From: Frondihabitans australicus
Lineage (GTDB): Bacteria; Actinomycetota; Actinomycetes; Actinomycetales; Microbacteriaceae
Assembly (NCBI RefSeq): GCF_003634555.1
Contig: NZ_RBKS01000001.1
Location: 372,001 to 436,000 of the forward strand
Direction of reading: 5' to 3'
Length of the DNA stretch: 64,000 bases
The position numbers and the translations under genes were made by a program. Each line of letters opens with the position of its first letter. Within the stretch, counting starts at the first letter, position 1. Below are positions 5,484 to 6,546 of the stretch, piece after piece. The notes beneath the pieces are model-generated. The model was given only the letters and a program-made list of their open reading frames with translations. It was not told the origin of the DNA and ran no database searches.

Positions 5484-5525
5484 GATAGATTGAGGGCATG
5501 TCTTGGCTAGTGACCGGCGGCGCCG
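5484..5525 (+). repeat. First copy of duplicated galE promoter and start
   Basis: These 42 bases recur at 5564-5605 with one mismatch (A at 5489, G at 5569). Both copies contain a -10 hexamer and the first nine codons of galE. Similarity resumes at 5546-5555, which matches galE 5611-5620, so a longer duplication has been interrupted by an altered segment. Confidence 0.95.
5486..5491 (+). promoter_or_regulatory. -10 box of the decoy/minicistron copy
   Basis: TAGATT followed by six bases and an ATG, the same layout as the galE promoter 80 bp downstream. It has the TANNNT form expected of an actinobacterial leaderless promoter. Confidence 0.45.
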
Positions 5526-5539
5526 CGCTGTTCAACTAG
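5498..5539 (+). other. 13-codon minicistron made from duplicated galE start
   Basis: ATG to TAG encodes MSWLVTGGAALFN. Its first nine residues equal the start of GalE (the dinucleotide-binding strand) and the rest diverges. It has its own predicted leaderless start. It could be a scar of a tandem duplication, a decoy for RNA polymerase or ribosomes, or a short leader peptide. Whether it is translated is unknown. Confidence 0.5.
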
Positions 5540-5563
5540 CACAGGATCGGGTCCCCGTCGAAC

Positions 5564-5605
5564 GATAGGTTGAGGGCATGTCTTGGCTAGTGACCGGCGG
5601 CGCCG
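5564..5605 (+). repeat. Second copy of duplicated galE promoter and start
   Basis: The functional copy: it contains the predicted -10 box (TAGGTT) and the true galE start codon at 5578, followed by the full gene. The offset to the first copy is exactly 80 bases. Confidence 0.95.
5566..5571 (+). promoter_or_regulatory. -10 box of leaderless galE promoter
   Basis: TAGGTT lies six bases before the galE ATG. There is no Shine-Dalgarno sequence, consistent with a leaderless mRNA. Confidence 0.5.
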
Positions 5606-6546
5606 GCTACATCGGGTCCCATGTCGTTCGAGCGCTCGCGGGAGAGGGGCTCGAGCCGGTCGTGCTCGACGACCTCTCGAGCGGCATCGCGTCGTTCGTG
5701 CCCGAGGGCGTGCCGTTCGCGAACGGGACGATCCTCGACGGCGACCTGCTGCGTCGCACGATCGACGAGCACGGGGTGACGGGCGTCGTGCACGTCGCCG
5801 GCTTCAAGTACGCGGGCGTGTCCGTCCAGCGCCCGCTGCACACCTACGAGCAGAACGTCACCGGCACGGCCCGTCTGCTCGAGGCGATGGCCGATCGCGG
5901 GGTGGATCGCATCGTCTTCTCGTCGAGCGCAGCGGTCTACGGCACGCCCGACACCGACACCGTCATCGAGGGCACGCCGAAGAACCCTGAGTCGCCCTAC
6001 GGCGAGTCGAAGCTGATCGGCGAGTGGCTCCTGCGCGACCAGGGGCGGGCCGCCGGGCTGCGGCACACGAGCCTGCGCTACTTCAACGTCGTCGGCTCGG
6101 GCGAGCCCGACCTCTACGACGCGAGCCCGCACAACCTGTTCCCGCTGGTGTTCCAGGCGCTGCTCGACGGCAAGACGCCGCGGATCAACGGCGACGACTA
6201 CGACACCCCCGACGGCACCTGCGTGCGCGACTACGTGCACGTGGCCGACCTGGCGATCTCGCACGCCGTCGCGGCCCGGAAGCTCGATGCGGGCGAGACG
6301 CTCGAGTCGGCCTACAACCTGGGCTCGGGCGACGGCGTCTCGGTGCGCCAGATCATGGACGCCATGGCCGAGGGCACCGGCATCGCGTTCACGCCGGAGA
6401 TCGCGCCCCGCCGCCCCGGAGACCCCGACCGCATCGTCGCCAAGGGCGAGCTGGCCGCGCGCGACCTCGACTGGGAGATGCGTCACACGCTGCTCGAGAT
6501 GGTCACGAGCGCGTGGGAGGCCCGGAAGGCGGCCGTCCCCGCGTAG
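5578..6546 (+). CDS. galE: UDP-glucose 4-epimerase
   Basis: A 322-residue extended short-chain dehydrogenase that interconverts UDP-glucose and UDP-galactose using bound NAD. It shows the N-terminal Gly-Gly-Ala-Gly-Tyr-Ile-Gly Rossmann motif (residues 7-13), the Ser-Ser-Ser-Ala-Ala-Val-Tyr-Gly segment near 115 and the catalytic Tyr-Gly-Glu-Ser-Lys near 141-145. The length is close to the family norm of about 330. It supplies activated galactose for the surface glycan genes on either side. The 5' end is unusual because its promoter and first codons are duplicated just upstream. Confidence 0.95.
   Translation: MSWLVTGGAGYIGSHVVRALAGEGLEPVVLDDLSSGIASFVPEGVPFANGTILDGDLLRRTIDEHGVTGVVHVAGFKYAGVSVQRPLHTYEQNVTGTARLLEAMADRGVDRIVFSSSAAVYGTPDTDTVIEGTPKNPESPYGESKLIGEWLLRDQGRAAGLRHTSLRYFNVVGSGEPDLYDASPHNLFPLVFQALLDGKTPRINGDDYDTPDGTCVRDYVHVADLAISHAVAARKLDAGETLESAYNLGSGDGVSVRQIMDAMAEGTGIAFTPEIAPRRPGDPDRIVAKGELAARDLDWEMRHTLLEMVTSAWEARKAAVPA

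Follow-up and report, generated by a model that had tools for sequence, protein, structure and literature searches.

The 5′ end of galE in this Frondihabitans genome carries a direct repeat that is most likely the scar of a small mutation, and probably a neutral one. We consider it highly probable that the repeat arose by a recent duplication, which left a futile minicistron behind what is plausibly a second leaderless promoter. A repeat search of the window (the whole 64-kb stretch of DNA analyzed here) aligned positions 5484–5525 with 5564–5605 at a spacing of 80, with 41/42 bases identical and a sole mismatch (A5489/G5569), far above the chance expectation for a direct repeat of 42 bases. 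Copy 1 (5484–5525, plus strand) contains a −10 hexamer, TAGATT (5486–5491), and an ATG at 5498; copy 2 (5564–5605, plus strand) contains TAGGTT (5566–5571) and an ATG at 5578. Each copy reads TANNNT, 6 bp, ATG, and the first 28 coding bases of galE are identical in both (28/28). The pair is the only direct repeat in the window of ≥25 nt with ≤1 mismatch and a spacing of 20–300. Eight further repeats of this kind were found in ~740 kb (the window plus related loci), mostly short-unit or GC-rich, and none of the eight includes a leaderless-type start. The first-pass annotation had placed the repeat, with its hexamer and start codon, at exactly these coordinates, and had stated that only the second of the two starts 80 bp apart enters galE; the frame from 5578 indeed continues as galE to 6546.

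The gene (5578–6546, plus strand) encodes a UDP-glucose 4-epimerase of 322 aa with the Pfam Epimerase domain, and its product scores 306.9 bits against TIGR01179 (NCBIfam cut-off 262.3). It lies on a complete single-contig chromosome (4.04 Mb, 100% completeness; Microbacteriaceae), near manA and a divergent gene for an AraC-family regulator with a DJ-1/PfpI domain (4478–5422, minus strand), which is nearest to FtrA but falls below the cut-off of that family. A second genomic match to the repeat (C1:1885696) was rejected as a further copy; it marks where a different NAD-epimerase-like ORF begins, with a start that looks leaderless.

Leaderless genes make up >20% of genes in Actinobacteria and are marked by a TANNNT motif ~12 bp upstream of the start (PMC3160421), and in mycobacteria an ATG or GTG at the 5′ end is both necessary and sufficient for leaderless translation (PMC4633059). 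The galE start has this TA-led arrangement and shares it with its relatives: TANNNT-N4-8-start occurs in 55/80 related galE loci, and the start context in Frondihabitans resembles the CGATAGGTTGGCCCC-ATG of Frigoribacterium. Because of this conservation galE is probably leaderless, and by the same comparison copy 2 is the predicted promoter and start of ancestral type. Since TAGATT, the hexamer of copy 1, is the sole galE −10 in the sister genome G006, the predicted promoter of copy 1 may be functional too. That relatives retain the galE promoter and start thus supports the earlier proposal that both starts are leaderless. A scan for E. coli-type promoters found none, and such sites are uninformative for this organism.

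Comparison of the intergenic region in close relatives, as the first-pass annotation had advised, showed the duplication to be absent from six other Frondihabitans genomes (including Frondihabitans sp. PhB188, G002, and F. sucicola, G005), all of which are single-copy. No comparable duplication was found at 80 related galE loci or elsewhere among 400 genomes of the family. The galE head scored 80 against its own upstream region here (median 18, maximum 26 in the 80 related loci), and a degenerate pattern (a galE-like start followed by TANNNT and ATG within ~100 bp) occurred in 1/400 family genomes, the present one, with the proviso that the pattern is exact at fixed positions and a diverged duplication could escape it. 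The two copies share all 28 coding bases although 40% of the fourfold sites of galE differ from the nearest relative (G001), which argues that the event is recent. As judged from one genome per species, the duplication is therefore recent and, within this sample, confined to the present lineage. We regard an assembly or sequencing artefact as highly improbable: the feature is known from a single assembly and is unique to it, but the copies differ by one base, 20 nt of the 38 bases between them have no match elsewhere in the genome, and the genome is one contig of full completeness.

The flanks point to the way in which the repeat arose. The sequence to the left of copy 1, GATCCTGCCATAAATGC (5461–5477), is also present in the unduplicated genome G001, where one galE promoter and start lie just downstream of it at a spacing that equals that of copy 1 within one base. 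Relative to G001, the old flank on the left therefore adjoins copy 1 and the gene on the right adjoins copy 2, the layout left by a tandem duplication. A tandem model further predicts that galE sequence continues after copy 1, and the 10-mer ATCGGGTCCC is found at the predicted place (5546–5555, plus strand, equal to 5611–5620), with a weak continuation into CGTCG; it is likely a remnant of galE codons. An exact match of 10 bases between the two 38-base stretches has p ~0.002, whether the spacer is dinucleotide-shuffled or replaced by 38-mers drawn at random from the window. The spacing of 65 at this 10-mer and of 80 in the main repeat agrees with the 15-base offset reported when the similarity was first seen to resume.

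The resumption implies a duplicated unit of at least 57 bp and ~15 extra bases. These extra bases, at the internal junction, set the locus apart from short tandem duplications in bacterial chromosomes, which it resembles in having a head-to-tail copy, in each outer flank adjoining one copy and in being confined to a single lineage. The copies do not abut directly. The 38 bases that separate them are mostly non-galE, a 20-nt filler, CGCTGTTCAACTAGCACAGG (5526–5545, plus strand), stands in place of galE GCTAC (net +15), and the junction CGTCGAAC (5556–5563) is a clean fit to neither parent. Because of the filler and the untidy junction, a one-step tandem duplication is insufficient, and a second or a complex, coupled event is needed. 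From this arrangement we infer that this Frondihabitans lineage recently underwent a tandem duplication whose unit, ~57 bp or slightly longer, began a short way upstream of the galE −10 and reached about codon 15. Copy 1 would have gained ~15 net bases during or after the duplication, ending the frame after 13 codons. A literature search on promoter duplication returned nothing directly matching.

Several sources for the intervening bases were considered and set aside. A copy from elsewhere in the genome was ruled out for the filler, which has no second match there when ≤3 mismatches are allowed. The part of the spacer that adjoins copy 2 weakly resembles the intergenic region of a related locus (L034; p 0.11), a resemblance that would suit a copy placed upstream and not one in tandem; that the spacer is ancestral intergenic DNA common with L034 is not established at this p value. 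An imperfect inverted repeat, TCGATGGGGTATTCGATCCTG / CAGGATCGGGTCCCCGTCGA, lies on either side of copy 1 (5447–5467 and 5542–5561; p 0.0125, 1 of ~18 tests), and the filler as an inverted copy of the upstream region was not adopted, given that number of tests and an identity of only ~80%. Because it flanks copy 1, the same inverted repeat could also be read as the trace of a mobile or site-specific element, with copy 1 enclosed by direct or terminal inverted repeats. We hold this to be extremely improbable, as the inverted match reaches only ~80% against 98% for the direct copies, no further copy of the unit occurs in the genome, the genus or the family, and there is no integrase-sized remnant.

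The minicistron opened by copy 1 (5498–5539, plus strand) has a leaderless-type ATG and 13 codons, MSWLVTGGAALFN, followed by a TAG stop (5537–5539) that the filler provides in frame; direct reading of the sequence agrees with the peptide and stop given at first pass. In leaderless galE the promoter and the start codon lie within 14 bp and would have been copied together, which makes the upstream copy a plausible second promoter. By analogy with mycobacteria, a transcript from this putative promoter (P1), with AUG at its 5′ end, would be translated into a dead-end peptide of 13 residues, while GalE would be made from the unchanged downstream start in copy 2 (P2). The P1 RNA would run through P2, placing the galE AUG 80 nt from its 5′ end. 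The galE ATG lies 38 nt past the minicistron stop, and a GAGGG ends just 1 nt before it. A GAGGG this close to the ATG is too near for a good Shine-Dalgarno site. With the galE AUG far from the P1 5′ end and the GAGGG poorly spaced, P1 would add little GalE, or would mildly interfere by lowering P2 firing through read-through. The effect on galE is thus likely to be nil to slight.

These same considerations bear on a regulatory role for the second promoter, in which P1 would sit against the control region of the divergent araC-family gene and P2 would be shifted 80 bp away from it, giving two differently regulated galE promoters. Both hexamers suit leaderless promoters, and P1 retains the flank with ATCCTGCCA, which five relatives also carry, exactly or with one change, between araC and galE. 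The position of the galE AUG in P1 transcripts and the spacing of the GAGGG count against this role, however, and long spacers already exist without any duplication at G003, G005 and L034; we find it very unlikely.

We consider it very unlikely that copy 1 is a functional leaderless leader ORF acting as an attenuator, in which translation of the 13 codons would decide whether the filler pairs with copy 1 or with the galE start. Copy 1 is identical to the galE start, the filler between them can pair with either, the predicted energies of the two alternative hairpins are −24.8 and −30.8 kcal/mol, and a hairpin over 5498–5550 has z −3.25. Yet copy 1 and the filler do not pair beyond chance expectation (p 0.075–0.084 versus shuffles, 0.36 versus random 38-mers of the GC-rich window), and given this result we judge the hairpin over 5498–5550 to be chance. 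The filler as an inverted copy of copy 1, forming competing hairpins, was rejected on the same range of p values (0.075–0.36). Over its full length the leader is no more stably folded than shuffled sequence (z −0.38), and neither alternative RNA structures beyond chance nor a terminator-like site was found in it. The 13-residue peptide has no run of a regulatory amino acid and is absent from all relatives searched, and the short ORF is not conserved at the 80 galE loci, in the genus or in the 400 family genomes.

Regulatory leaderless upstream ORFs have been proposed in mycobacteria, and the galE minicistron resembles them in that TANNNT is followed by an ATG at a predicted 5′ end, from which a short ORF runs ahead of an annotated gene (PMC4633059). 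Unlike them, it is unconserved, does not overlap the next gene and lacks a regulatory residue run, and the gene after it is served by a leaderless promoter of its own. An engineered leaderless bicistronic design in Corynebacterium glutamicum likewise sets a leaderless fore-cistron before a gene, but that design needs an active Shine-Dalgarno site and translation of the fore-cistron (PMC10367133), whereas the galE locus has only the poorly spaced GAGGG and a second promoter in between. Among the options first offered (decoy, leader peptide or recent duplication scar), the scar is borne out by the layout in relatives. A leader-peptide or decoy function is unsupported at the sequence level: the peptide is unique to this genome, RNA structure is within chance and the leader has no terminator-like site.

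As a young duplication scar, the repeat is by itself of little import, a small lineage-specific mutation of an ordinary class at an instructive place. Because a leaderless promoter and its start codon are contiguous, a small tandem duplication would yield a promoter and a translated leader ORF in one step. In leaderless-rich bacteria a short 5′-end duplication would thus create an instantly translatable mini-ORF, and such events are a possible source of new leaderless upstream ORFs. It is unlikely that the present case is such an ORF caught at birth and already modulating galE, via promoter interference or competing RNA pairings. Annotation pipelines could misplace the start or the transcription site at a duplicated galE start.

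Other features of the galE region were observed in this genome and its relatives. The AraC/FtrA-like DJ-1 gene lies between manA and galE here (4478–5477), and its start is also found upstream of galE in G001, G002, G003, G005 and L034; galE directly follows manA in G006 and Frigoribacterium, which points to a lineage-specific insertion or loss of the gene. The sequence ATCCTGCCA at 5462–5470 (TGGCAGGAT when read from the minus strand) has counterparts ahead of the AraC-like gene in Frondihabitans relatives, with ATACTGCCA as the form in F. sucicola; upstream of galE, L015 and L016 have palindromes of the CTGCCACTCGTGGCAG type. Sequences of the ATCCTGCCA and CTGCCACTCGTGGCAG types are possibly a regulator site or an araC promoter. 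The long spacer of G003 (L007) contains CACCGGCGGCGCCG ~46–33 bases upstream of galE, equal to codons 5–10 of its own galE, possibly by chance in GC-rich DNA or as an old decayed duplication. In Agromyces sp. Root81 (L093, 2874–2930), a 23-bp tandem repeat (TGAGCGCCTCCCGGCGCAGCCCA) lies ~70–130 bp upstream of galE.
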